Origin: a virus
Reading direction: 5' to 3' (one strand)
Virus record (IMG/VR): IMGVR_UViG_3300043775_000222
Span: 1 to 39,987 of that record
Length of the DNA stretch: 39,987 bases
Shown: positions 4,650 to 23,556 of the stretch, piece by piece
Layout: each line of letters opens with the position of its first letter
How positions within the stretch are numbered: position 1 is the stretch's first letter
The notes under the pieces: generated by a model
Told to the model about the DNA's origin: nothing
Databases searched by the model: none
Seen by the model: only the letters and a program-made list of their open reading frames with translations
Made by a program: the position numbers and the translations under genes

Positions 4650-5051
4650 ATGGCACAGCAAGGTGGTAAGCGACCAGTTCGTACTAACACTCAAGCTAAA
4701 CCAGTATCTGGTCCAGGTGCTTTGTCACAGCGTACAGATATGATGACTGCAAGTGATCCTAATGTTTATGGTGATCGTAAGGCTACTGAAGAGTTAATGT
4801 CTGCTGCTCCAATGGCTAGACGAGCACAAGTATCTAAACCAACTGTTACTGGATTATTTGAACCAACTCAATTTCCAGAAGAACCAGTTACTGCAGGTAA
4901 CCCAATGGGTCCAGGTCCAGGACCAGAAGCACTTAATCTTCCTGCCCGTACATTTAATCCAACACAAATTCTTTCACGTTTAGCTGAGTCAGATCCTTCT
5001 GGTGAAATTGACATGATCCTACAGGAACTAAACAGTAAAGGTATTGTTTAG
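4650..5051 (+). CDS. Small, largely disordered structural-region protein
   Basis: A 133-residue protein not recognised. The first 100 residues are rich in Pro, Gly, Thr, Gln and Ala and look disordered (for example NPMGPGPGPEA). The last 30 residues look helical and end in a LNSKGIV tail. It lies two bases after the preceding gene and its TAG overlaps the GTG start of the giant gene by one base. It could be a minor head protein or assembly helper; the low-complexity N-terminus argues against an enzyme. Confidence 0.75.
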   Translation: MAQQGGKRPVRTNTQAKPVSGPGALSQRTDMMTASDPNVYGDRKATEELMSAAPMARRAQVSKPTVTGLFEPTQFPEEPVTAGNPMGPGPGPEALNLPARTFNPTQILSRLAESDPSGEIDMILQELNSKGIV

Positions 5052-8000
5052 TGACAATTCAACCAATGGGTGGAATGCCTGAGGAAATCCCAGGTTCACT
5101 TCCATCAATGACTCCTTTGCCACAGATGCAAAGTATTTTTAATAAAACACAAAGCGATCCATCTACTGCTGCGGTTCGTAAATTAGATGCTACAGTTGCA
5201 CGTGTATCTCCCGCTCTTTACGCTGCAGGATCAAGAGCTGCTTTAACTCGTGAAGAAAAAAACTTAATTGAAAACTGGGCTAAAGTTCGTGAGACCCATA
5301 AAAAATTAATGAAAATGAATAACCAAGAAGCTGGTGAATCATTTAATAAATTAGAACCAGGTTTTCAAGAAGTTTTAAAAACATATTACAAAACAGATTA
5401 TTCAAATAAATCTGAAGGTGGCGAACTAATCCAAAATGAGGATGTTCGTAAGGCTCTTGGCATTCAAGATACTGATGGCGTAATTAGCCCAATGGATGTT
5501 GTTAAAAGTCCATTTAAGTTTTTAATGGGTGCTGCCACTCAGTATGGTAAATTTTTTAATACTCCTGGTGCAATGCTACAAAACTCCATTGTTAATAAAG
5601 AATCTTTTTGGAGTCGCAGTAATGGTGAAGTTGCGTTTGATGGCAAGTATCTTTATGACAATGAATTAGCTGATGAGTTAATTAATAAGTATGGTTCAGC
5701 TGAAAGCTTTGTAGCTATGCATGTACTAGCTGGCGATACTCCTGGAGAAATTATTGATGCTTGGGGTCCTAATGACCCAGCTATTCTTAGTGCAATTAAT
5801 GCAATGTTTAATGAAGAAGAATCATTTGGCTTTATGCTAGGTGAATTTTCACGAGCACAACTATCTCCTGGTCGCATTGCAGGTCGTTGGGTTAACAAAA
5901 AACTTAACATTGACACAAATGAAAATATTGGTTTATTTAATTTTACCACTGGTGCTATTGATGCAGCCTATCAAATCTTTGCAGATCCATTAACCTATTT
6001 AACTTTTGGTGCTTCAGCAGTTATTAAGGGTGCAAGTAAAGCAGAAAAATTAGCAGAAATTATTAAATCTGGTGACGATGTACCAGCATTCCTTGCACGT
6101 CCAGAAGTTGCAGAACTTTATGGTGGTTACACAAAACGCATTGGTGAACTTGGAGATGCGTTAGCAATTAAAGCTACAACTTCAGAACAAAGTGCTGTTA
6201 AAGCGGCTAAGGTAGCCGAAGCAAGAAGAGCAATTAACACAGAGTATCCTCAATTAGCTGATCCTAAAGATATAGAAGTTTGGCTTCAAGCTGGAGTTCG
6301 CGATTTAGAAACTTTTAAAAATTCATTCTTAGATGAAGGTGCAAAAGAATACACACGTTTAATTCGTGGTAGAGATATGAGCATGAGTTACGCTCGTGAG
6401 GGTGCAGCTTACGCAAAGCGCACACGTAGAGCAACACTTAAATCCAAAGAAATTATGCGAAATACTTTTCTTGGTAAAAGAGTAAGCGAAACAGATTCTG
6501 TAACTGAATACGCTAACATTCGCTCTAAGTTATTTGAAGATGAACCACTAGATATTGATATTGCAATTAATAAAAAACAAAACAGACTTCAAAAATTTAT
6601 TGAGCGTCAAACTAGATTACATCCTGGTCGTGCTGTTGTATTCCATGATGATGCAAACTATGCTAAAACTGTAGATGTTTTTCAGAAGCAAGCATTCATG
6701 GCTTTTGGTCGCCAAGATTTAGCAGAACTTGCTACTGCTGATTTTATTGCTGGTACTCAAGCTGATCGTTTTGCTTTACATCGTTCTGTGTTTGAATTAA
6801 TTATGCGTCGTGAAGGTATTCACGGAATGCCTGGTGGTCAAAACTTTATTGATGATGCGCTTGAAAAGCACTTTGGTAAGAAAACTACTTGGACAACATC
6901 AGATGAAGTTTCTGTTCCAACTCGTGCAGGATTATTAGAAGATCGACCAAGCACTGTAAATGTATCTGGTCCACTTCATGCTTCACAATTTCAAAACTTT
7001 GTTGCATCTCCTGATTGGCGAGCAATATCAGAGTTTGTTGCAGATCGTTCTTTTAGAAAATCTGATGATCAAAAAGTTATTGAGTACATTCCACAATTAA
7101 TTGGTGGTGCGTACAATCATCGCGTAACTGGAATTGCTACTGATCTTTGGACAACTCTTACTCTTATTCCTCAGTTGGGTATTCGTACTGCAATTGATGA
7201 GGGCTTTATGTTCTTAATGTATGCAAATCGTGGCATGTTAAGAAATGCTAGGACTTCAAAGCAATACCAACGTATTTTTAATGCTGCTCTTGGCATGGAT
7301 AATATGGCTGGCATTGGTCCTGTTAAAAGCGGAATTGAAGCACTAAGAACAAAAGTTTCTGGAAAGCCTGTTGGTGCATCAAGATCTATTGATAATGCAC
7401 AACGTGCAGCTATCCGCAAAGATGTACTAGAACAAAATAAAAATCTTCCAGTTTGGCAACAAGAAGAAATTGTTAGAGAAAGAATTCTTGATACTGCAAT
7501 TTTTATGCATGGTACAAAGCTAAGTCCAGAACAAGCTAAGTGGTTTAAAGAACTAGTAATGGATAATCCAAAGGTTCTTCATAGCATTTCAAGCAAGCAA
7601 GTTACTGATGCAATGCAGGGCAAAACAGCTGTAATGGAATTTGCTGATATGTTAACTGATAGTCAGTTAGATATGGCTATGAACAATCTTGGTCTTGTAG
7701 CACAGGGTGCTATTAAATCTTTCCAAGTTACTTCAATGAAAGATTCTCACCGCGACATTGCAATGTTCCGCAACTTTACTCGTATCTTTAATGATAAAGG
7801 ATTTGAAGTACGCAATGGTAAAGATGTAAGTCGTTTTAGTTTTGCTTCTGTTTTTCTTAAGCATGATGGTATTGCTACTCCAAAAGACTGGACAAAAGCA
7901 ACTAATGAATTAATGGCAAACTTTGGTTTTATACGAAACTCCGAAGGTGCTTGGGTTATTAAAGTTGGCAAAGAAAAAGAAGTAGAAAAAATAATTAATA

Positions 8001-10285
8001 GCACTCGTTTCTTTGACGACTGGAAAGATCTTGCAAATCCAGCCGATAAGATGCAAGAATTTATTCGTGCTGGATTATCTGATACTTACACAACATTCCA
8101 TGGCGCAGCAGATACTTTTAACCCAAAGCTAATTAAATTCTTTGATGATTACCGTAATGGAAAAGTTGTTGATCATCGTAGGTTAATGGATAACATTGAC
8201 TTTGAAAGTTACGTTGACGCTACAACTGGATTTAAAGTTAAAGGTCATATTATGACCGATATTAAATTTGATGGCGTAGCTACTGATTTAAGAACAGCAA
8301 TTCAAAACTTTGGTCCAGACCAAGCATTTGATTTAATGGCTCGTCAAACAGATGCAATTACTCGTATGCCAGTTACTCACATGCATTACATTGCATTCCG
8401 TGAACAATATAAAACTGGCGAAACAGCTATGGCTAGACAACTTGCAGATAGTCGCATTAGAGAACTTGAAGCTGATGGTTCAATACTTAATGACAAAGCA
8501 ATATTCAAAATTGAACAAAACGCAAGAGAACAAGCAGGTAAGTTTTTTGCTAATAAAGCAATTAATGATGCTGCACAACACGTATTAAAGTTTTCTGATA
8601 ACCCTGCACAGCAAACTGTATTTGCATACAACATGCGTACTGTAGGACGTTTCTATCGTGCAGTTGAAGACTTCCATCGCCGTATGTATCGTCTTGTTAA
8701 AGACCATCCACTTGAAACAATTTATCGTTTGCGATTAATGAACCAAGGCTTTGATGCCGTAGGTGATATACACACGGATCAAGATGGTAACAAGTACGCA
8801 ATTCTTCCAATGGATGATGTTATTTATAGTGCAGTAGATACTACTGTTCGTGCATTAACTGGTGGACAGGAAAGCATTAAGCAGCCATTGTTTAATGATA
8901 TTACTTTTAACTTAACTGCTGGTAATCCTTCATTCCAAACAGATGCTGGTATGCCGTATCTTTCAGGTCCAATGGGATCATTATCTGTTGCTGCTGTCAA
9001 GGGAATGTTGGGCGTATTTAATCCAACTAAGAATCTTTCAGAAGACATGGACAACATTCTTCTTGGAGATCTTGGAGATAACGTAGATCCTGTTAAAGCT
9101 GTAACTCCTAAAATTGTGCGCAATATTTGGAGCATGTTAAACATTGATGAGAAATCAACACAAGAGATTTCAGCAATGACACAAGCAATTAGTTACAATC
9201 AAGCTAATGGTATTGCTATCGATCCAGAAGATCCTAAGTATTTATTGCCAGATGGTAGCATTGACCAAGCATTACTTGCTAAAGATCAAACTGAATACTT
9301 AAAGAATCTACGCATTAGCGCACATAACATTATTGTTACTCGTGCATTGCTGGGTCTTATTCTTCCATTTTCTGTACAAACTAAAAGCACAAAAGATTTG
9401 CCTGAGTACTTGTTAGATAGTGGCATTACTTCTATGCAAGAAAGTTTTTATGAAGTTTTAGATCAGATTAAGAGCAAATATCCAGATGCTACAGATCATT
9501 ACGAAATGGCACTAGCAACTTGGATGGGTGAAAACCCAGGCAAGATTGCTTATGTTGTATCTAAGAAGTCAAAAGAAATTCAACCTATTCTTAATTACTC
9601 TAGAGAAATGCAAAACTGGGCTATATCAAATCAGTCTGCTATTGATGAGTTTGGTGCTGGTGCTTTATTGTTTGCTCCTAGAGTTGGAGAGTTTAGTCCA
9701 GGTGTATGGCAGTGGGCTGCCTCTACTGGCATTGCAAAAAACACGGACATTGAAGCATACTACGGAAAAGTTAGTATGCAACAATACATTAATGCTTACT
9801 ATGATTTAAATGATAAAGAAGCTATGGAACTTAAAGCTGTTCCATTTAGCAATGTAGCACTGCGTCGTGAAGTTATAGCAAAGTACGATGAAGAAAAAAG
9901 AAAGATTAAGTTAGCTGTACCTGGTTTGGAAAATTACATTGCCAGTGGTGCAGATAATACTGATGCTTTTGAATTTGTTAACAATGCTTACAACTATGCA
10001 ACGTCTCCAAGTGCTTCTATGCCAAAAGATGTAAAAGAAAATATAATACTTGCTTATAAGTTGTACACAGATTTTATTGCTAAGGCAAACTATATTAATT
10101 CTTTAGATGCTGGCAATGCTGCAGATTTAAAGCGAGCAGAAAAAGAAAAAACAGTTAATGCTATTAAGCAGATTATTGCAAATGATCCAACAAAAACTGT
10201 AGAACAATATTTTAACTACGGACTATCTAAACTAATTAATGCTAAGTCCAAAGATGCAAGTGCTGGACTAAGGAGAAATGAATAA
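5051..10285 (+). CDS. Giant virion protein, probable internal/ejection protein
   Basis: The 1744-residue protein is the largest in the genome, about 13% of it. It starts with GTG overlapping the preceding stop. It is predominantly helical and charged with scattered hydrophobic patches, for example around 300-325 (FADPLTYLTF) and 700-720 (LIPQLGIRTA). I see no ATPase, nuclease, lytic or polymerase motif that I can defend. Size, absence of a tape measure elsewhere, and three more structural-type genes directly downstream suggest a protein carried in the head and ejected with DNA, analogous in role to T7 gp16 though not recognisably homologous. A virion-associated enzyme domain cannot be excluded. 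The next gene overlaps its stop by one base (TAATG). Confidence 0.65.
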   Translation: MTIQPMGGMPEEIPGSLPSMTPLPQMQSIFNKTQSDPSTAAVRKLDATVARVSPALYAAGSRAALTREEKNLIENWAKVRETHKKLMKMNNQEAGESFNKLEPGFQEVLKTYYKTDYSNKSEGGELIQNEDVRKALGIQDTDGVISPMDVVKSPFKFLMGAATQYGKFFNTPGAMLQNSIVNKESFWSRSNGEVAFDGKYLYDNELADELINKYGSAESFVAMHVLAGDTPGEIIDAWGPNDPAILSAINAMFNEEESFGFMLGEFSRAQLSPGRIAGRWVNKKLNIDTNENIGLFNFTTGAIDAAYQIFADPLTYLTFGASAVIKGASKAEKLAEIIKSGDDVPAFLARPEVAELYGGYTKRIGELGDALAIKATTSEQSAVKAAKVAEARRAINTEYPQLADPKDIEVWLQAGVRDLETFKNSFLDEGAKEYTRLIRGRDMSMSYAREGAAYAKRTRRATLKSKEIMRNTFLGKRVSETDSVTEYANIRSKLFEDEPLDIDIAINKKQNRLQKFIERQTRLHPGRAVVFHDDANYAKTVDVFQKQAFMAFGRQDLAELATADFIAGTQADRFALHRSVFELIMRREGIHGMPGGQNFIDDALEKHFGKKTTWTTSDEVSVPTRAGLLEDRPSTVNVSGPLHASQFQNFVASPDWRAISEFVADRSFRKSDDQKVIEYIPQLIGGAYNHRVTGIATDLWTTLTLIPQLGIRTAIDEGFMFLMYANRGMLRNARTSKQYQRIFNAALGMDNMAGIGPVKSGIEALRTKVSGKPVGASRSIDNAQRAAIRKDVLEQNKNLPVWQQEEIVRERILDTAIFMHGTKLSPEQAKWFKELVMDNPKVLHSISSKQVTDAMQGKTAVMEFADMLTDSQLDMAMNNLGLVAQGAIKSFQVTSMKDSHRDIAMFRNFTRIFNDKGFEVRNGKDVSRFSFASVFLKHDGIATPKDWTKATNELMANFGFIRNSEGAWVIKVGKEKEVEKIINSTRFFDDWKDLANPADKMQEFIRAGLSDTYTTFHGAADTFNPKLIKFFDDYRNGKVVDHRRLMDNIDFESYVDATTGFKVKGHIMTDIKFDGVATDLRTAIQNFGPDQAFDLMARQTDAITRMPVTHMHYIAFREQYKTGETAMARQLADSRIRELEADGSILNDKAIFKIEQNAREQAGKFFANKAINDAAQHVLKFSDNPAQQTVFAYNMRTVGRFYRAVEDFHRRMYRLVKDHPLETIYRLRLMNQGFDAVGDIHTDQDGNKYAILPMDDVIYSAVDTTVRALTGGQESIKQPLFNDITFNLTAGNPSFQTDAGMPYLSGPMGSLSVAAVKGMLGVFNPTKNLSEDMDNILLGDLGDNVDPVKAVTPKIVRNIWSMLNIDEKSTQEISAMTQAISYNQANGIAIDPEDPKYLLPDGSIDQALLAKDQTEYLKNLRISAHNIIVTRALLGLILPFSVQTKSTKDLPEYLLDSGITSMQESFYEVLDQIKSKYPDATDHYEMALATWMGENPGKIAYVVSKKSKEIQPILNYSREMQNWAISNQSAIDEFGAGALLFAPRVGEFSPGVWQWAASTGIAKNTDIEAYYGKVSMQQYINAYYDLNDKEAMELKAVPFSNVALRREVIAKYDEEKRKIKLAVPGLENYIASGADNTDAFEFVNNAYNYATSPSASMPKDVKENIILAYKLYTDFIAKANYINSLDAGNAADLKRAEKEKTVNAIKQIIANDPTKTVEQYFNYGLSKLINAKSKDASAGLRRNE

Positions 10286-11643
10286 TGGCTATTACTGTAC
10301 CAAGTCCAGATTATATTTTGCCAACCGAAGAACCTAAAGATAATAAAAATAAAGGTAAAGGCGTAATAACTGGCAGAGGTGTAACTCCTGCTACAGCAGC
10401 AGCCCAGCAACAAAAATATAAAAATACAAATGTAGCCGAAAGAGTTGCTAATTCTTTAGAAGCTAGGCAAGCTCGTTCATTGACTCGTTTGGCAGAAGAT
10501 ACTTTTATTGAAGCAACTAGAAAATACAAAGAATCTCCTAGTACTCAAACAAAAGCTGCCTATGAATCTGCATACAAAGATTTTATTAAATCAACAGATG
10601 CATATAAAAAATTAACAAACGAAACTTACCAGACAAAAAAAGTACCTCAAGATGTTGTTGGAAAACTTCCAACAGAATCTAAGGGATTTGATCCTAGGCG
10701 TCAGTACACAGAATCTGGCGCAGCTGGTGCATCAACTCCAGGTGATCGTGCAAAAATTGATGGTGCTCCAGATTATGTATTTATTAATCCATTAGATAAT
10801 AGTCGTTGGAAGTCAGATGGGTTCCTTCCTTTATCTGATGATCCATATTCATTTTCTTATGCAAGTGGAACAAGTCAAACAGAACTTCCAGTTGCTTTTA
10901 TTGCTAACGATAATGGATCTATTCTTCAAGATAGTGATGGCAATCCAATTGATTTAGGTACATCAATTAATAACATTCTTAAAGAGTATTCTTCCGCTGG
11001 AAAAATGAATGAATTAAGAGATTTACTTATTCGTAGTAAAATAGCTGCAACTCCAGCTGAAGTAGCTGCTATGAACAACGCTAAAAGAATGGGAAATTCT
11101 GATTACTTTGGTCAGGATCCAAATACACGTGCACTTGTACAAAGAGCAGTTCAATTTTTAACAATAAGTAATATTGCTGCTGTTGGTGTTAAGAATAACA
11201 AACCAAAGTTTGAATCTTTTGCTCAGTATCTTAAGGGATACAAGGGAGATTTAAACTATTTACTTGGACAAAGCAGTGGCGGTGGTTATGGTAGCGGTGC
11301 TCCACGTAAAACTATTTCACTTTCTCAGCAAGTCTACACTCCAGAAGATCTTGAATTAAATATTGATGCATTCTTTCAAGAATACACAGGTCAAGGTGCT
11401 AGTAAAGAAGATGTTGACTATCTTGTAAAGCGTCTTAATAAGCAAGGTACGCAAAAAACTGTAACTACTCGTGATGGAAATACTGAAAAGTCTATTACAA
11501 CAGGTGGAGTATCTCAGGGTGAACAACAGTTAATGATGCGTGAGATGGCACTTAATGATCCTGCTGCAGAGTCTTACAATAAGGCAACCACTTATCTAAA
11601 CTACTTCCGTGAAGCTTTAGAATCTCCGATTGAATTAGGTTAA
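10285..11643 (+). CDS. Probable internal virion protein
   Basis: A 452-residue protein translationally coupled to the giant gene by a one-base overlap. The first 160 residues are low-complexity, Lys/Thr/Ala-rich and probably disordered. A folded middle region follows, then a Gly/Ser linker (around 332-343, SSGGGYGSGAP) and a helical C-terminal region. No catalytic motif is evident. It belongs to the four-gene block between portal and scaffold, likely virion components delivered into or through the cell envelope. Alternative: a minor head or tail assembly protein. Confidence 0.6.
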   Translation: MAITVPSPDYILPTEEPKDNKNKGKGVITGRGVTPATAAAQQQKYKNTNVAERVANSLEARQARSLTRLAEDTFIEATRKYKESPSTQTKAAYESAYKDFIKSTDAYKKLTNETYQTKKVPQDVVGKLPTESKGFDPRRQYTESGAAGASTPGDRAKIDGAPDYVFINPLDNSRWKSDGFLPLSDDPYSFSYASGTSQTELPVAFIANDNGSILQDSDGNPIDLGTSINNILKEYSSAGKMNELRDLLIRSKIAATPAEVAAMNNAKRMGNSDYFGQDPNTRALVQRAVQFLTISNIAAVGVKNNKPKFESFAQYLKGYKGDLNYLLGQSSGGGYGSGAPRKTISLSQQVYTPEDLELNIDAFFQEYTGQGASKEDVDYLVKRLNKQGTQKTVTTRDGNTEKSITTGGVSQGEQQLMMREMALNDPAAESYNKATTYLNYFREALESPIELG

Positions 11644-15768: not shown

Positions 15769-16094
15769 GTGGTAAGTACAACATTGTAGCCGAACAAGGT
15801 GCTACCTTTAATCTTAACTTCCGTGTTGAGACTGATGGCACCCCATGGAATTTAACTGACTATGATTTTGCTATGCAGGTTCGACGTTCTACTTCTGCAA
15901 CTACAACTTTACTTGATGTTACTTCTGCAACCATGACCTCTGTTGGTCATGTATCTGTTGACGTTGCTGCTGCAGAAATGACTGATGTTCCTGCTGGTCG
16001 TTGGGTATATGACATTGAACTTACATCTTCTGGTGGTGAGGTCACTCGCATTCTTGAGGGTCGCTTTATTGTTACCCCTGAGGTGACACAGTAA
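15765..16094 (+). CDS. Small beta-rich tail or fibre-attachment protein
   Basis: A 109-residue protein, beta-strand rich, resembling the N-terminal beta-sandwich of phage receptor-binding or baseplate upper proteins: [10 protein letters not shown] at 9-18, [12 protein letters not shown] at 29-40 and a terminal strand around [12 protein letters not shown]. It lies just upstream of, and overlaps by one base (TAATG), the collagen-like fibre gene, which suggests it attaches or anchors the fibre. The family call is from pattern memory only. Confidence 0.6.
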
Positions 16095-17944
16095 TGCCAG
16101 ATTACACAGTTATCATTGAAGAAGAAGTTGTATCAACTACAGTTACTATTGAAGAAACTGTTACTGATGTTATTCTTGGTGAAGAAGTTTTACAAGAAAC
16201 AGTTGTTGTTGTTGAAAATCAACAGGGTCCTCAAGGCACTCAAGGTATAAATGGTGTCATTGGACCAACAGGTCCAACTGGACCTGCAGGTCCTACAGGT
16301 CCTACTGGAGCGGTAGGTCCAACAGGACCCACTGGGTCTACAGGACCTCAAGGAATTACAGGACCAACTGGACCTACAGGTGCTACAGGTCCACAAGGAA
16401 TTCAAGGTATAACTGGACCAATAGGACTAACAGGTCCAACGGGAGCGCAAGGTCCGCAAGGTGCTGTTGGTGACACAGGTCCCGTTGGTCCTACTGGAAG
16501 TGTTGGTCCGACAGGAGCAACTGGTGCAGTTGGTGCTACTGGAGCCGTCGGACCTACTGGTCCAACTGGTCCTCAAGGCGTGCAGGGCATTCAGGGCGAG
16601 CAAGGTATCCAGGGAATTACTGGTCCCGTAGGACCTACTGGCAGTACTGGTGCCACTGGTTCTACAGGAGCCACAGGTAGTACAGGAGCCACAGGTTCTA
16701 CTGGTACTGCTGGTGATAAGTATGCAACTACATCTACATCAAGTTTAACTATTGCTTCTAGTGGAAGCATTACATTAACGGTTGGTACTGGATTATCTTA
16801 TTCTCATAATCAAAACGTTATAATTTCTTATGATATTGCAAATCACATGCATGCTGAGGTTGACACTTACAACTCAAGCACTGGTGTAATGGTTGCACAG
16901 ATTCAAGACTCTGATGGTTCTGGTACTTACTCGCTATGGGAAGTTAATCTTTCTGGTGCAGTAGGTATTGCTGGACCTACTGGACCGACAGGTCCAACTG
17001 GTGCTACATCTACAGTGCCTGGTCCAACAGGACCTACTGGAAGTGTAGGACCTACTGGTGCTGTTGGAGCAACAGGAGTAACTGGACCTGAAGGTGTTCA
17101 AGGTATTCAAGGTGTTACAGGTTCGGTAGGTCCAACAGGACCAACGGGAACAACTGGAAACACAGGAGCGACAGGACCAACTGGTTCTACTGGTGATGGT
17201 ATTACCCCTGGTGCTATAACAATGTTTGCTGGTTCTGCAGCACCGTCTGGTTACTTGCTATGTGATGGTACTGCTGTTAGCCGTACAACTTACTCAGCAT
17301 TGTTTGCTATAACTAGTACCACCTATGGTGTGGGTGATGGGTCAACAACATTTAACCTACCAAACCTAAAGGGTAAAATTCCTGTTGGTTTAGATAGTTC
17401 TCAAACAGAGTTTGATGTACTTGGTGAAACTGGTGGAGCAAAGACTCACACTTTAACCAGTGCTGAAATGCCAAGTCACTTACACTCAGTTGACCCACCT
17501 ACCGCTGACTTTGTATCTAGTGGTGAATCTGTTACCCATACCCATGGTACTGGCGGTCAATCCGTTTCCCACACTCACACTGGAAACAGTGGCTCTGTGG
17601 CTGGTGGTTTAACTTTGTCTCCAAGTGGCAGTTTGTATGAATGGACTGGTGGAGCCATTTCTGGTTCTGGCAGAATTTATTACACAAGAAACAGTAATGC
17701 CACCAATGGTGCACAGTCAATGGCTCCTGGCATCAATGCTATAAACGCAGACCATAGCCATAACTTTACTAGTAACAATAACAGTGTGGACCACAACCAT
17801 GGTAATACATATAATGCAAGTGTAGGTCACACTCACACTACAACCGTAAACATTGCTGCGTTTAACTCAGCATCAACTGGTGATGGCGGAGCACACAACA
17901 ACCTTCAACCGTACATTGTACTTAACTACATCATTAAGACATAG
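16094..17944 (+). CDS. Collagen-like tail fibre with tail-collar domain and HxH-rich tip
   Basis: A 616-residue fibre. Residues 1-44 are a Val/Glu/Thr-rich attachment region. Two G-x-Y collagen-like stretches follow (about 45-206 and 290-371), mostly GPTGPT and GATG triplets, separated by a beta domain (about 207-289). A phage tail-collar domain (about 372-433, including GYLLCDG) precedes a Gly/Ser/His-rich C-terminal tip with at least six HxH motifs (HLH, HTH, HTH, HSH, HNH, HTH). In T4 fibre tips, HxH histidines bind metal and stabilise the trimeric needle; the same role is inferred here. It is the likely host-contact protein. Confidence 0.88.
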
Positions 17945-17952
17945 GAGTTATT

Positions 17953-18048
17953 ATGGCTTGCCGTACAGGTTGTCCAACTCAGGACTGTGAATCCTATGCA
18001 GATTGCTGCAAGGGCGTAGCTATAAATAAATCTAGCTTACGTCCTTAA
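17953..18048 (+). CDS. Tiny Cys-rich protein, short MACRTGCPTQD paralogue
   Basis: A 31-residue protein with a TAGGAG site upstream and six cysteines. Its first 11 residues, MACRTGCPTQD, are identical to the start of the 88-residue protein at 19126, and a D-x(6)-DC spacing is shared as well. Seven of the ten codons after ATG differ between the two genes without changing any amino acid, strong evidence that both are translated and under selection. It lies directly between the fibre and glycosyltransferase genes. Function unknown; the spaced cysteines suggest metal binding or disulfides. Confidence 0.75.
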   Translation: MACRTGCPTQDCESYADCCKGVAINKSSLRP

Positions 18049-18065
18049 TGTGATAGGATAATAGC

Positions 18066-19136
18066 ATGGTTAAGATTGCAGCTTATGCTATAGCTAAGAA
18101 TGAAAGTAAACATGTCAAGCAATGGGTAGATGCTACTGCTGGAGCAGATGTCCGAATTGTCTTAGATACTGGGTCAGAAGATAACACCTATGACCTACTC
18201 CTACAGTACCCCGTAGAAGCTCACAGAGCCACGCTAAGCGACTTTAGGTTTGATGTAGCACGAAATATGGCACTAGATTTAGTACCATCTGATGTAGATG
18301 TATGTGTATCTTTGGACATGGACGAGATACCAGATCCAGATTTCTTTGACAAGATACGACAGGCTTGGCAGCCTGATACTGGTAGAGCTTGGGTTATGTG
18401 GGACACAGGTAATATCTGGGCTAACAATAATCGTATTCATACTAGGCACAATTACAGGTGGCGTTATCCTTGCCACGAAGTTCTAGAACCTATTGATAAA
18501 AGTTTAGATAAACTTATTGTAATAGAGACACTAGTAACTCATAAACCAGATGATGATAAACCACGTAATAGTTATCTAACGTTATTAGAACTAGGACACA
18601 GCGAAGATCCAACTAATCATAGAATGATTGTTTACTTAGCCCGTGAGTATTACTTCAAAGGTATGTGGGAAAAGTTAATAGAGGTTGGTAAGAAGCTAGA
18701 AGATATTCCAGGATGGAATGTTGAACGTGCACAAACTTGGCGTGGTATAGGCGAAGCCTACTGCAAGTTAGGTAATGATCGTGAAGGTCTTTACTGGTAT
18801 CAACGCAATGTTGAAGAAGCACCATTAGATTTAGAAGCATGGATGCCATTAGCTTTCTACTATTACGAACGTAAGATGTGGAATCATTGCTATCAAGCAG
18901 CAATTAAAGTAACCGAACTTTCTAATGAATCTTATAATCATTATGTAGCTGATCAATCAATGCCTTGGCGTATGTATGACTTGCTTACTATGGCATGTTG
19001 GAACTTAGGCAAAAAGGGTTCTGCTAAAAAGTACGCACGTAAAGCAGTTGAACTTAATCCTGATGATCAAAGATTAATTAATAACTATGAGTTTGTTATG
19101 ACTCAGACTGTAAAGGATTACAAGAATGGCTTGTAG
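18066..19136 (+). CDS. Family 2 glycosyltransferase with C-terminal tetratricopeptide repeats
   Basis: A 356-residue protein. The N-terminal GT-A domain has AIAKNE at 8-13, DTGSEDNT at 34-41 and the metal/sugar-nucleotide motif LDMDEIP around 83-89. Residues from about 180 to the end form tetratricopeptide-like helical hairpins (for example AREYYFKG, GEAYCKLG and ACWNLGK). Family 2 enzymes transfer a sugar from a nucleotide donor. Placement in the adsorption region suggests it decorates a virion protein such as the fibre or the flanking cysteine-rich proteins, or alters the host surface; the acceptor is not shown. Its stop lies 11 bases inside the next gene. Confidence 0.82.
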   Translation: MVKIAAYAIAKNESKHVKQWVDATAGADVRIVLDTGSEDNTYDLLLQYPVEAHRATLSDFRFDVARNMALDLVPSDVDVCVSLDMDEIPDPDFFDKIRQAWQPDTGRAWVMWDTGNIWANNNRIHTRHNYRWRYPCHEVLEPIDKSLDKLIVIETLVTHKPDDDKPRNSYLTLLELGHSEDPTNHRMIVYLAREYYFKGMWEKLIEVGKKLEDIPGWNVERAQTWRGIGEAYCKLGNDREGLYWYQRNVEEAPLDLEAWMPLAFYYYERKMWNHCYQAAIKVTELSNESYNHYVADQSMPWRMYDLLTMACWNLGKKGSAKKYARKAVELNPDDQRLINNYEFVMTQTVKDYKNGL

Positions 19137-19935: not shown

Positions 19936-20087
19936 AGAAAAAAGTATGGGATACACCAAATCCTAAAAAGAAATCTAAAGCATTGACACCAGCTCAAAAG
20001 ACTGCAGCTAAAGCTCGTGCTAAAAAAGCTGGACGACCTTATCCAAATCTAATTGACAACATGGCAGCTACTCGAAAGAAAAAATAA
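19929..20087 (+). CDS. Tiny basic protein ending in NMAATRKKK
   Basis: A 52-residue protein, overlapping the preceding gene by seven bases and abutting the next ATG exactly. It has a VWDTPNPKKKSK start, an Ala/Lys-rich helix (about 20-35) and an AGRPYPNLIDNM segment (34-45) that I recall in small proteins of other phages next to the same 88-residue neighbour. Very basic. Function unknown. Confidence 0.68.
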   Translation: MVKKKVWDTPNPKKKSKALTPAQKTAAKARAKKAGRPYPNLIDNMAATRKKK

Positions 20088-21914
20088 ATGGCTAACCCAA
20101 TAGCACCACCAGTAGACGAGTATCGTGGTACTAATATCGTTAAAAAAGATAATGATTCACTTGCATGGGAAGTTGCTGATTTTTTATTTGGTGTTGAATC
20201 AATACAAAAGATTGCTAGTGGCAAAGGTTCTTGGGGCGATGCGCTTAACATTGGTGTAACTGCAGCTACATTTTTTATTCCTCCTGCAAAACTTCTTGGA
20301 CTTGGTAGCAAAGCTTTAAGTAAAGTTATTGTTGATGCAGAAAAAGCAGCAGCTAATGAAGTTACATCTATAGTAGCAAAGAAGGTAGCTTTACGTACCG
20401 CAGAAGAAGCTAAAGCTATTCGCGATACTGGGTTACCATTAGCCCAAAGTCCTACGCGACCAATGAGTGAAGCTCGCTTTAAAAAGATTACAGAGCCAGA
20501 ACCAGAGACTGGATTTGTTCCTGAGAAGCCACCATTAGATACATTTGGAAAAGATTTAATTGAAGATGTATCACCTTACACTGCAAAAGAAACTGCTATT
20601 CGTAAGTATGCATCTAAAAAAGAAAAAGAAGAACTGTACGGATCTACTGTTAAAGTTAAGCCAGCACCTAAGAAACCATTAACTAAAGAAGAAGAAGCAA
20701 TAGTTAAACAGGTTGACGAAGAAATACCAGCAGATATTCCTAGAGCAGAGGGTCAGGGTCAAGTACCAGTTATTAATCGTAAGACTGGTGAGCTTGAATT
20801 TGAAAGTAGCATGACTGAAAGAACTGCACTTCCATCTAAACTTAGTATATCTCCACGTGTTGATCGTGCTGCATGGTTGCAAAATAAAATGGATAAGTTA
20901 TCTCGTAAAAAAAATTCACTTCCTAAAGAAGAGCGAACTAAAGTACAGGCAGAAATAGATAAGTATGATACTGAATTTAAGTCTCTTCGTAAAAAATTAA
21001 CAGAAGAAGAACGTGCACAGTCTGGAAAATTATATAACGAATTAAATAAACTTGATTTAAAAGAAGCATCTAAGACTGCACCTAAAACTACAAGATTTAA
21101 TTTAGATCAATCTAAAAAGGATTTAGAAAAACTTCGTGAACAATGGTCTAAAACTCCAGTTCAAGATTTTGAAAAACGCAATCAACTTAAACAACAAGGT
21201 AAAACTTTAGCGGACAGAATTAAAAAAATGGAAAAAGATTCTGGTTTACCTACAGTTGCAGATGATTTAATTACACCTCCAGTTAAATCAACTGTGTCTA
21301 GTGTTTCAGATGTTACTGTTCATTCAGGTGGTGCTAAAGGTGCTGACACAGCATGGGCTGAAGCTGCTGATTTAGCAGGTATAAAAACTATGGCTCATAG
21401 TTTTAAGGGACATGAATCTCTTGGTACTGCTTCTGGTTTTGTTGGCAAGCGACCAGCACTTGAAGTTAGAAATGATTTAACTGAAGAACAATTACGTCAA
21501 CAAACAAAACTTGTTAATGATGCAGGTAGCGTTTTAGGTAAGCGAGCAGGTGTATCATCTGCTGGTGGAAAACTTGTACATAGAAATGCTTATCAAGTTA
21601 AAGACTCAGATGCAGTTCTTGCTGTTGCAAGTGGATGGACAAAAATTGCTGATGGAACACGGGTTACTGTAGGTGGTAGAGGTACTCCTTGGGCTGTTGA
21701 AATGGGAATTATTTTAGATAAACCAGTATTTGTTTTTGAGCAAAATGCTAGCAAGTGGTTTAAGTTTAATCCTAAAACAAAAGAATGGGATGAATTAGAT
21801 AGTCTTCCGCCTACGTTTAAAGACTTTGCTGGCATAGGTACTGCAAGTGAACTTAAAGATTCTGGTCGTCAAGCTATTAAAGAATACATGCAACAATTTA
21901 TGAAGGGTAACTAA
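20088..21914 (+). CDS. Large protein with a C-terminal SLOG nucleotide-binding domain
   Basis: A 608-residue protein. The N-terminus has a hydrophobic region (about 51-80, with AATFFIPPAKLLGLG). Residues about 130-400 are Lys/Glu-rich, disordered or coiled-coil. Residues 411-600 look like a SLOG (SMF/DprA-LOG) domain: VHSGGAKGAD at 411-420, a DSDAVLAVASGW strand about 504-515, a second GGRGTPWAVEMG motif about 526-537, then a PVFVFEQ strand and an FAGIGTA segment. SLOG domains bind nucleotides or nucleotide-derived ligands such as NAD or cyclic ADP-ribose products, and some sense signals in anti-phage defence. Here it might be an ejected or early-acting ligand-binding or processing module. 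Its precise enzyme activity cannot be read from sequence. Confidence 0.72.
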   Translation: MANPIAPPVDEYRGTNIVKKDNDSLAWEVADFLFGVESIQKIASGKGSWGDALNIGVTAATFFIPPAKLLGLGSKALSKVIVDAEKAAANEVTSIVAKKVALRTAEEAKAIRDTGLPLAQSPTRPMSEARFKKITEPEPETGFVPEKPPLDTFGKDLIEDVSPYTAKETAIRKYASKKEKEELYGSTVKVKPAPKKPLTKEEEAIVKQVDEEIPADIPRAEGQGQVPVINRKTGELEFESSMTERTALPSKLSISPRVDRAAWLQNKMDKLSRKKNSLPKEERTKVQAEIDKYDTEFKSLRKKLTEEERAQSGKLYNELNKLDLKEASKTAPKTTRFNLDQSKKDLEKLREQWSKTPVQDFEKRNQLKQQGKTLADRIKKMEKDSGLPTVADDLITPPVKSTVSSVSDVTVHSGGAKGADTAWAEAADLAGIKTMAHSFKGHESLGTASGFVGKRPALEVRNDLTEEQLRQQTKLVNDAGSVLGKRAGVSSAGGKLVHRNAYQVKDSDAVLAVASGWTKIADGTRVTVGGRGTPWAVEMGIILDKPVFVFEQNASKWFKFNPKTKEWDELDSLPPTFKDFAGIGTASELKDSGRQAIKEYMQQFMKGN

Positions 21915-22813
21915 TGGCTACGTTTGGTCAAATGACTGATGAAGTATCACGTAAGTTAGCAGGTTTTACACTGCGTCAAGATCGTCAGACACATCTTGTT
22001 GCTGCCGTTAATGCAACTGCAACTAGCATTAGTGTTGCTTCTGCACAGAACATTTCAACTGGTGTAATTCAAATTAATGATGAATTAATCTACATAGATT
22101 CTTATGATCGTGCTTCAGGCGTACTTAGCGTTCCACCTTATGGTCGTGGTTATAATGGCACAACTGCAGCAACGCACCAGAATGGTTCACGTGTAATTAT
22201 TTCTCCTACCTTCCCATCTTTAGACATTAAAGGTGCAATTAATGAAACTATCGAAGCAGTATTCCCAGATCTATATGCTACTTCTACGCATACATTTTCA
22301 TATTCAACAGCTAAATCAACTTATGCTTTACCAGATGAAGCAGAGACTGTGCTTGGAGTATCTTTCCAAACTACTGGTCCATCTAAGGAATGGCTTCCTA
22401 TTCGTAGCTGGCGTGTTGATCCTATGGCTAACACTGATGCTTTTAATTCTCGCAATAGTATTAGTCTTTATTCTGGTGTTGAGCCTGGAAGAACCGTACA
22501 AGTATTTTACACTTCTGCTCCAGCAGTAATGGATAGTAATGATGATGACTTTGAAATTGTTACTGGACTACCTGGGTCTTGTCGAGATGTAATTATTCTT
22601 GGTGCTTCAGCACGTTTGTCAGCGTTTGTTGATCCAGGTCGTTTGACATTTGGTTCTGCTGAATCTGATCAGCAATCACAAATTGCTGGTCGTGCTTACG
22701 GTGCTGGTACTAATGCATCTAAGTATCTTCTTGCTCTCTATGATAAGCGACTTGGTGAAGAAAGTCGTAAGTTAACTGATCGTAATCCAACTAGAATCCA
22801 TTTCACTAGATAA
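21914..22813 (+). CDS. Probable connector or tail structural protein
   Basis: A 299-residue protein starting by a one-base overlap with the SLOG gene (TAATG). Its start, with GQMTDEVSRKL and an RQDR, is followed by a beta-rich domain (about 25-100) and a helical C-terminal half ending in a basic region. Its size, place and look fit a head-to-tail connector or adaptor such as the T7 gp11 class, but I see no diagnostic motif. Alternative: minor tail protein. Confidence 0.58.
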   Translation: MATFGQMTDEVSRKLAGFTLRQDRQTHLVAAVNATATSISVASAQNISTGVIQINDELIYIDSYDRASGVLSVPPYGRGYNGTTAATHQNGSRVIISPTFPSLDIKGAINETIEAVFPDLYATSTHTFSYSTAKSTYALPDEAETVLGVSFQTTGPSKEWLPIRSWRVDPMANTDAFNSRNSISLYSGVEPGRTVQVFYTSAPAVMDSNDDDFEIVTGLPGSCRDVIILGASARLSAFVDPGRLTFGSAESDQQSQIAGRAYGAGTNASKYLLALYDKRLGEESRKLTDRNPTRIHFTR

Positions 22814-22821
22814 GGTAAACA

Positions 22822-23556
22822 ATGCCAGCTCGTCAATATCGCTCAACTGTTGAAGCTAAGACTCTTAGCACAGGAATTAATAATAGCATCACAAGCATGA
22901 CGCTTAATAGCATCACCACATTACCAACTTCATACCCATACACATTAGTTATTGATCCAGATCTTGCTACTGAAGAAATTGTAACAGTCACTGCAAATGC
23001 TGGTGGTAACCAATTAACAATTGTTCGTGGAGAAAACGGTACTTCAGCACAGACTCACGATGCTGCTGCTGTTGTTAAGCATATGATTACTGCTCGTGAC
23101 CTGCAAGAACCACAAGACCATATCTTTGCATCATCTGCAATTCATGGTGTAACTGGTTCGGTTGTTGGTACATCAGATACACAAACACTAACTAATAAAA
23201 GCATTAATCTAAATGCTAATACTTTAACTGGTACAACTGCATTGTTTAACACTGCACTATCTGATGGTAACTTTGCTACTCAAGCTGGCACGGAAACATT
23301 AACTAATAAAACAGTTAACCTAACTGATAACACTTTAAGCGGTACTACTGCACAGTTTAATACTGCACTGTCAGATAATAATTTTGCAACAGAAGCTGCA
23401 CTAGCTGCACATGAAGCAGATACAACAAGTATTCATGGTGTTGCAGATACATCTAAGTTAGCAAAAATAGAAAGTGCTGATGCAGGTAGGACTATTTTTG
23501 TTCAGGCTGCTCAGCCTACTGCTCTTGCTGTTGGTGATATCTGGATCGATTACTAG
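22822..23556 (+). CDS. Fibre-like protein with TLTNKT repeats
   Basis: A 244-residue, Thr/Asn/Ala-rich protein. Two repeats of about 35 residues (about 118-152 and 156-190), each running from TLTNK through NTL-GTTA-FNTALSD, are typical of phage fibre shafts, where such repeats form trimeric beta structure. The N-terminus (about 1-110) is beta-rich; the C-terminus ends VGDIWIDY. It is probably an adsorption-apparatus component between the connector and the fibronectin protein. Confidence 0.65.
   Translation: MPARQYRSTVEAKTLSTGINNSITSMTLNSITTLPTSYPYTLVIDPDLATEEIVTVTANAGGNQLTIVRGENGTSAQTHDAAAVVKHMITARDLQEPQDHIFASSAIHGVTGSVVGTSDTQTLTNKSINLNANTLTGTTALFNTALSDGNFATQAGTETLTNKTVNLTDNTLSGTTAQFNTALSDNNFATEAALAAHEADTTSIHGVADTSKLAKIESADAGRTIFVQAAQPTALAVGDIWIDY

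Follow-up and report, generated by a model that had tools for sequence, protein, structure and literature searches.

The SLOG domain at the C-terminus of the phage protein studied here is an exchangeable cassette, a point that was absent from the preliminary description of this DNA. The protein, 608 residues long, is encoded in a 39,987-base virus record with a GC content of 40% (this whole stretch of DNA is called the window below; features in Table 1). Among close relatives, gain or loss of cargo is precise, in frame and located directly ahead of a fixed C-terminal tail, ATGAAGGGTAACTAATG. In a blastn comparison of the window with L096, homology covers 20087-21233 and 21900-22866 and the only gap lies at 21234-21899. 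Relative to L017, the window is without the NADAR segment that L017 carries at 10613-11260, and L020 and L101, which are ~94-95% identical on both sides, differ at the cassette site by the SLOG segment alone.

Results

One N-terminal module, seven cargo architectures

Scans with the N-terminal module returned 13 and 15 loci, mostly identical contigs. Behind this one module we found seven cargo architectures, counting the lack of cargo: no cargo (L096, L105), SLOG (window, L022, L023, L104), NADAR only (L101), SLOG-NADAR (L001, L002, L020), SLOG-DUF4326 (L019, L103), SLOG-DUF4326-NADAR (L003) and A1S_2505-DUF4326-SLOG (L004). Profile scans (Pfam, NCBIfam, PHROG) gave the assignments for L001, L003, L004, L019, L103 and the window, and the remaining architectures were assigned via alignment A3 or by tblastn and reading. 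The NADAR cargo matches PF08719 (E 1.6e-29) and the DUF4326 cargo PF14216 (E 1e-16). Several effector domains per chain are thus seen in relatives (SLOG+NADAR, SLOG+DUF4326+NADAR); the window protein itself has one. Genes with differing cargos retain the tail M[KE]G[NK]-stop, with partial exceptions in L104 and L105, which is explained by its carrying a Shine-Dalgarno-like AAGG and a TAATG that overlaps the beginning of the gene downstream. That gene is translationally coupled to the SLOG gene and probably encodes a virion protein.

Table 1. Features of the window; positions are those of the window, residues those of the 608-residue protein unless stated otherwise.
Feature	Position	Strand	Remarks
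Terminase	starts 753
Portal	starts 2654
Giant 1744-aa protein	5051..10285	+	homologues in L024-L030 carry a SLOG domain inside
Capsid	starts 14216
Tail fibre, repetitive, collagen-like	16094-17944
Glycosyltransferase (PHROG 13126)	18066-19136		non-structural kind within structural region
Whole gene	20088..21914	+	ORF encoding 608 aa: N-terminal module, coiled coil (probable), SLOG
N-terminal module, aa 1-110, hydrophobic helices	20088..20417	+	kept family-wide whatever the cargo
Long helices, aa 256-385	20853..21242	+	AlphaFold2 full length, pLDDT mostly ~80
SLOG cassette, 666 bp	21234..21899	+	absent from close relative L096; blastn, homology both sides
SLOG domain, aa 405-605	21300..21902	+	AlphaFold2 pLDDT 92.7; VIA-align 3imk Z 13.9; PHROG 768 E 3.4e-5
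GGAKGAD motif after first strand, aa 414-420	21327..21347	+	G414, G418, D420 invariant in 47 relatives
RNxxQV motif, aa 499-504	21582..21599	+	R499 47/47, N500 45/47, Q503 46/47
GGRGTPW motif, aa 529-535	21672..21692	+	G532 and T533 47/47
FAGIGT last strand, aa 580-585	21825..21842	+	in DprA precedes GG motif: circular permutation
Fixed C-terminal tail MKGN-stop, ATGAAGGGTAACTAATG	21900..21916	+	marks cassette boundary
Next gene, PHROG 7578	21914..22813	+	ORF, PHROG scan
Endolysin-like peptidase	starts 28396

Genome setting and layout of the protein

In gene order the window matches Streptomyces podophage FlowerPower; the capsid proteins of the two share 53% identity, and a host search via the capsid protein gave a single remote match, at 29%. 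Replication-type genes sit on the opposite strand. The SLOG gene, flanked by the gene of a small basic protein and the PHROG 7578 gene, is encoded among virion genes, as is typical of polyvalent proteins, with terminase, portal, capsid and tail genes as its neighbours. Upstream lies the gene for the giant 1744-residue protein, for which no Pfam and no PHROG match was obtained and which is probably an internal virion protein. Elsewhere in the structural region, the collagen-like tail fibre gene differs strongly among relatives, and a segment with the glycosyltransferase gene (18048-19111) is cleanly missing in L096, making it a second presence/absence cassette.

The N-terminal module contains 16 invariant columns in an alignment of 11 sequences (A4). 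A long disordered or coiled-coil part preceded by an N-terminal hydrophobic stretch had been described for this protein, and the full-length AlphaFold2 model agrees: a hydrophobic stretch lies among helices near the N-terminus, the middle of the protein (aa 117-252) is of low confidence in parts, and the long helices that follow (aa 256-385) probably form a coiled coil. The full-length model is poor except for the SLOG domain and this coiled coil, and no ejection-protein fold was recognised in its N-terminal part, where confidence is low. The window-type family yielded neither a metallopeptidase nor an LPD domain, and a Pfam scan of the 608-residue protein gave no match to SIR2.

A SLOG fold with permuted strand order

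Structure prediction of the C-terminal domain bore out the earlier identification as SLOG. Using an alignment of 47 sequences, AlphaFold2 modelled residues ~405-605 as an alpha/beta Rossmann-type domain with a mean pLDDT of 92.7 and a pTM of 0.90, and comparison of this model with solved structures by VIA-align supported a SLOG-type fold, the best match being 3imk (Z 13.9, rmsd 3.3, 148 residues aligned) and the runner-up PDB entry reaching a Z of only 5.3. We take 3imk to be a circularly permuted YpsA-type SLOG. ThsA was missing from the VIA-align list that yielded 3imk, and its absence there excludes nothing. A plain Foldseek search of the domain against the PDB gave nothing significant, mostly dehydrogenases with a TM of ~0.3, and a plain sequence search against the PDB gave chance matches only. 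Viral structure matches of the domain include the crAss-like phage cr130_1, Agrobacterium phage Atu_ph07 and a Medusavirus protein named molybdenum cofactor carrier.

The model has the features of the SLOG superfamily, namely a Rossmann-like alpha/beta architecture, a glycine-rich loop after strand 1 and a GG[ST] loop, and the two glycine motifs, GGAKGAD and GGRGTPW, are located as had been claimed. Its strand order is circularly permuted, as in cpYpsA. When a profile of the 47 relatives was compared with DprA, two weak pieces matched in swapped order, as expected from circular permutation: the FAGIGT strand comes last here, yet its counterpart in DprA 3uqz precedes the GG motif. Among Pfam models, single relatives weakly match DprA, YAcAr and cpYpsA; for cpYpsA (PF12694) this applies to 6/47 relatives (best E 8e-4), and the window protein has no match. 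The LDcluster4 model matched nothing anywhere in the record. Matches to Kelch_6 were below the cut-off and were dismissed as a chance resemblance to the W557 hairpin. A 9-sequence SLOG alignment found no relatives in 84,980 bacterial and archaeal genomes; this search rests on two short patterns and does not prove absence.

Conservation and selection

Eight positions are invariant in the 47 phage relatives: G414, G418, D420, R499, G532, T533, W557 and G584. The glycine motifs are kept in relatives, as a SLOG assignment would require. The SLOG domain has a dN/dS ratio of 0.15, as against 0.29 for the protein outside it. This conservation, together with the low dN/dS, argues that the domain is neither a chance resemblance nor a decaying remnant. 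The window is atypical at R531, where 42/47 relatives have G. The LOG motif PGGxGTxxE was not found, there being no Pro and a different spacing, and the position nearest to the LOG catalytic Glu is Q in 24/47 and E in 8/47. Membership among LOG-type phosphoribohydrolases was rejected because this Glu is not conserved, and for the same reason hydrolysis of a nucleotide is less likely than binding.

The same domain in other large phage proteins

In L024-L030 the SLOG domain lies inside a homologue of the giant protein, at a place occupied in the window's own copy by about 35 unrelated residues (aa 973-1009 of the 1744-residue protein). Klebsiella phage Pylas carries it in a low-complexity linker of its 3819-residue N4-type virion RNA polymerase, at ~residue 980-1155, and the polymerases of KpCHEMY26 and MY01, 91-94% identical to that of Pylas on both sides, are without it. 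A 4,328-residue protein of crAss phage cr113, which has a DFDID motif and is similar to crAss001 gp50, contains the domain close to its end. Read with table 11, the gene for this cr113 protein (L125, NC_055896 31391-44377) has 73 in-frame stops; read with table 15 (TAG = Q) it has none, so that TAG is evidently reassigned.

Altogether 85 SLOG loci were classified, and these counts are not independent since some contigs are near copies: 26 are crAss-type polymerases, 10 window-type proteins and 7 homologues of the giant protein, a further 7 are large proteins that have a DLDGD motif or are homologous to those that do, 32 are standalone proteins and 3 are of other kinds. The large SLOG proteins of L036, L037, L043, L032 and L087 have a GADLDGD motif that resembles the active sites of RNA polymerases; they showed no similarity to crAss001 gp50, and are perhaps another type of virion polymerase. 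In the N4-type RNA polymerase of Alteromonas phage PT15-A5 (L013) we noted a SLOG relative seemingly without the N-terminal GGAKGAD part, possibly a decayed copy.

In a tree built without L013 (an out-of-frame row), the window-type SLOGs group in a single clade (100/98), separate from the giant-protein and Pylas copies, with weak deep forks. This separation suggests that the domain was probably recruited into phage proteins repeatedly.

Discussion

Proposed virion delivery and function

That the protein might be carried in the virion had been suggested before, and it is comparison that speaks for it. The domain occurs in N4-type and crAss-type polymerases and in the giant-protein homologue. 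The virion RNA polymerase of phage DEV is an ejection protein and its N4 counterpart is injected (PMC10925440), and crAss001 gp50 was detected in virions by mass spectrometry (PMC10172136). Since the domain recurs in proteins of the virion-cargo type and also sits on a protein of a structural operon, it would most simply be injected cargo, and virion delivery of the window SLOG protein appears well supported by these comparisons. Virion delivery is not general, given the share of standalone SLOG loci (32/85).

We propose, with moderate confidence, that the 608-residue product is an internal, ejected virion protein whose exchangeable SLOG cargo binds an immune signal of the NAD/ADP-ribose type. 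In a podovirus-like phage, the product would sit inside the virion and probably be ejected; its N-terminal module and coiled coil would do a phage job (packaging or ejection), and its C-terminus would serve as a slot for exchangeable cargo, here a single SLOG domain of the phage cpYpsA/DprA-like kind. At infection the SLOG domain would enter the cell together with the DNA, ahead of any phage gene expression, and would there bind, and thereby sequester (less likely process), an NAD/ADP-ribose-derived nucleotide from host immune enzymes. Binding or removal of a Thoeris-type signal is plausible and agrees with the occurrence of NADAR and DUF4326 as alternative cargos. Viral SLOG, Macro, NADAR and DUF4326 domains were predicted in 2022 to counter ADPR-derived immune signals, with NADAR and DUF4326 predicted to process ADP-ribose (PMC9503650); the alternative cargos NADAR and DUF4326 belong to this same predicted set, which supports the NAD/ADPR-signal reading. 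The proposal also draws on the predicted fold with its conserved motifs of a pocket type, on purifying selection and on the position of the gene among structural genes. Against it count the GGRGT of the window, which departs from the family pattern, the failure to recognise an ejection-protein fold in the N-terminal part, and the relatives that match DprA or ShosA profiles.

More tentatively, it is possible that unrelated phage groups repeatedly insert one viral SLOG into large injected proteins as a pre-emptive, virion-borne counter to NAD signalling, the hosts of the insert being N4-type polymerases, crAss-type polymerases and internal proteins of actinophage-like podoviruses. If true, the cell would contain an immune-signal binder before any phage transcript had been made, and nature would have supplied matched plus/minus phage pairs: the genomes of Pylas (SLOG+) and of KpCHEMY26 and MY01 (SLOG-) are deposited, which makes the question directly testable. 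The cassette slot would also offer a route to further anti-defence domains, by seeing what else fills the C-terminal position.

Alternative explanations

The main rival, which we consider unlikely, is that the cargo copies antitoxins (DprA-like ShosA in the case of SLOG, NADAR/YbiA for DarT1 or YarT) and, injected on entry, would disarm toxin-antitoxin defences of the host. Homologues of DprA serve as antitoxins in shosTA, syrTA and rqlHI (PMC9122126), and the PADLOC model of ShosA is matched by 18/47 relatives (best E 2e-6), but not by the window SLOG itself. NADAR and YbiA strip ADP-ribose from guanine in DNA and can be antitoxins, although the phage NADAR assayed gave no in vivo rescue from DarT1 (PMC11125620), and we identified no toxin partner.

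The second rival, in our view distinctly unlikely, takes the domain for a DprA-like DNA escort that binds single-stranded or entering phage DNA and either protects it or loads a recombinase. Such a role would suit the annotation of PHROG 768 as a DprA-like recombination mediator, the weak matches of 11/47 relatives to the DprA model PF02481 (best E 1.6e-4) and the fusions to RNA polymerases, enzymes that act on the DNA as it enters. However, the window protein does not match PF02481 even with E values up to 1 allowed, its strands follow a permuted order compared with those of DprA, and the fusion partners NADAR and DUF4326 suggest nucleotides. Still more doubtful is that the gene merely lies inside the structural operon and encodes a late-expressed cytoplasmic protein: a non-structural glycosyltransferase gene is indeed found in this region, but the core module is retained without cargo in L096 and L105, and the SLOG domain recurs in proteins with relatives that are proven virion cargo in other phages. 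Lastly, the fusion of SLOG to several kinds of large protein, and the SLOG sensors proposed for some phage fusions (Iyer et al., 2022, PMC9503650), would allow a switch in which the domain responds to an NAD/ADPR signal of the host by regulating the polymerase or ejection protein fused to it, but this seems highly improbable, because close relatives lose the domain with no marked change in the partner and the insertion site in the virion RNA polymerase is a low-complexity linker, so that cargo fits better than an integral regulator.

Comparison with known systems

Two parts of the proposal are already published, namely the idea that viral SLOGs oppose NAD signalling and the injection of polyvalent proteins. 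The YpsA-like SLOGs of viruses are likewise phage domains, fused to Macro, NADAR and DUF4326 and predicted to act against ADPR signals, but are described as typically standalone; the same work argues for virion packaging of ART, Macro, NADAR and Nudix (PMC9503650). In the phages studied here, SLOG is instead a cassette borne by putatively ejected proteins and also occurs within virion RNA polymerases. Injected polyvalent proteins, including N4-type virion RNA polymerase fusions, resemble the window family in being multidomain, encoded by virion genes and equipped with modular cargo (Iyer et al., 2017, PMC5512222). They differ in that no SLOG is described in the relevant passages of that account, and the window family has an N-terminal module of its own. 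In the open-access literature we found no description of SLOG inside virion RNA polymerases, nor of an exchangeable C-terminal slot in which SLOG is present or absent between near-identical phages.

With the cpYpsA SLOGs (PF12694; 3imk, a putative molybdenum carrier) the window domain shares the fold over 148 residues, a GG motif that comes first and the permuted order; it differs in that identity is 18%, it has a beta-hairpin with the invariant W557, and the curated profile is not reached. ThsA of Thoeris also contains a SLOG domain, which binds the cyclic ADP-ribose 3'cADPR (PMC11204291), but is a host effector with SIR2 and has no sequence match to the window SLOG. The sponges Tad1 and Tad2 and RyDEP remove NAD-derived alarm molecules (PMC13232231, PMC12043709), and the SLOG domain would act likewise. 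Their folds, however, are other than SLOG. To our knowledge, the known phage sponges and hydrolases directed against Thoeris-type signals are made after infection. Such a signal may rise within minutes, and a binder delivered with the DNA, if our proposal is true, would act ahead of the sponges.
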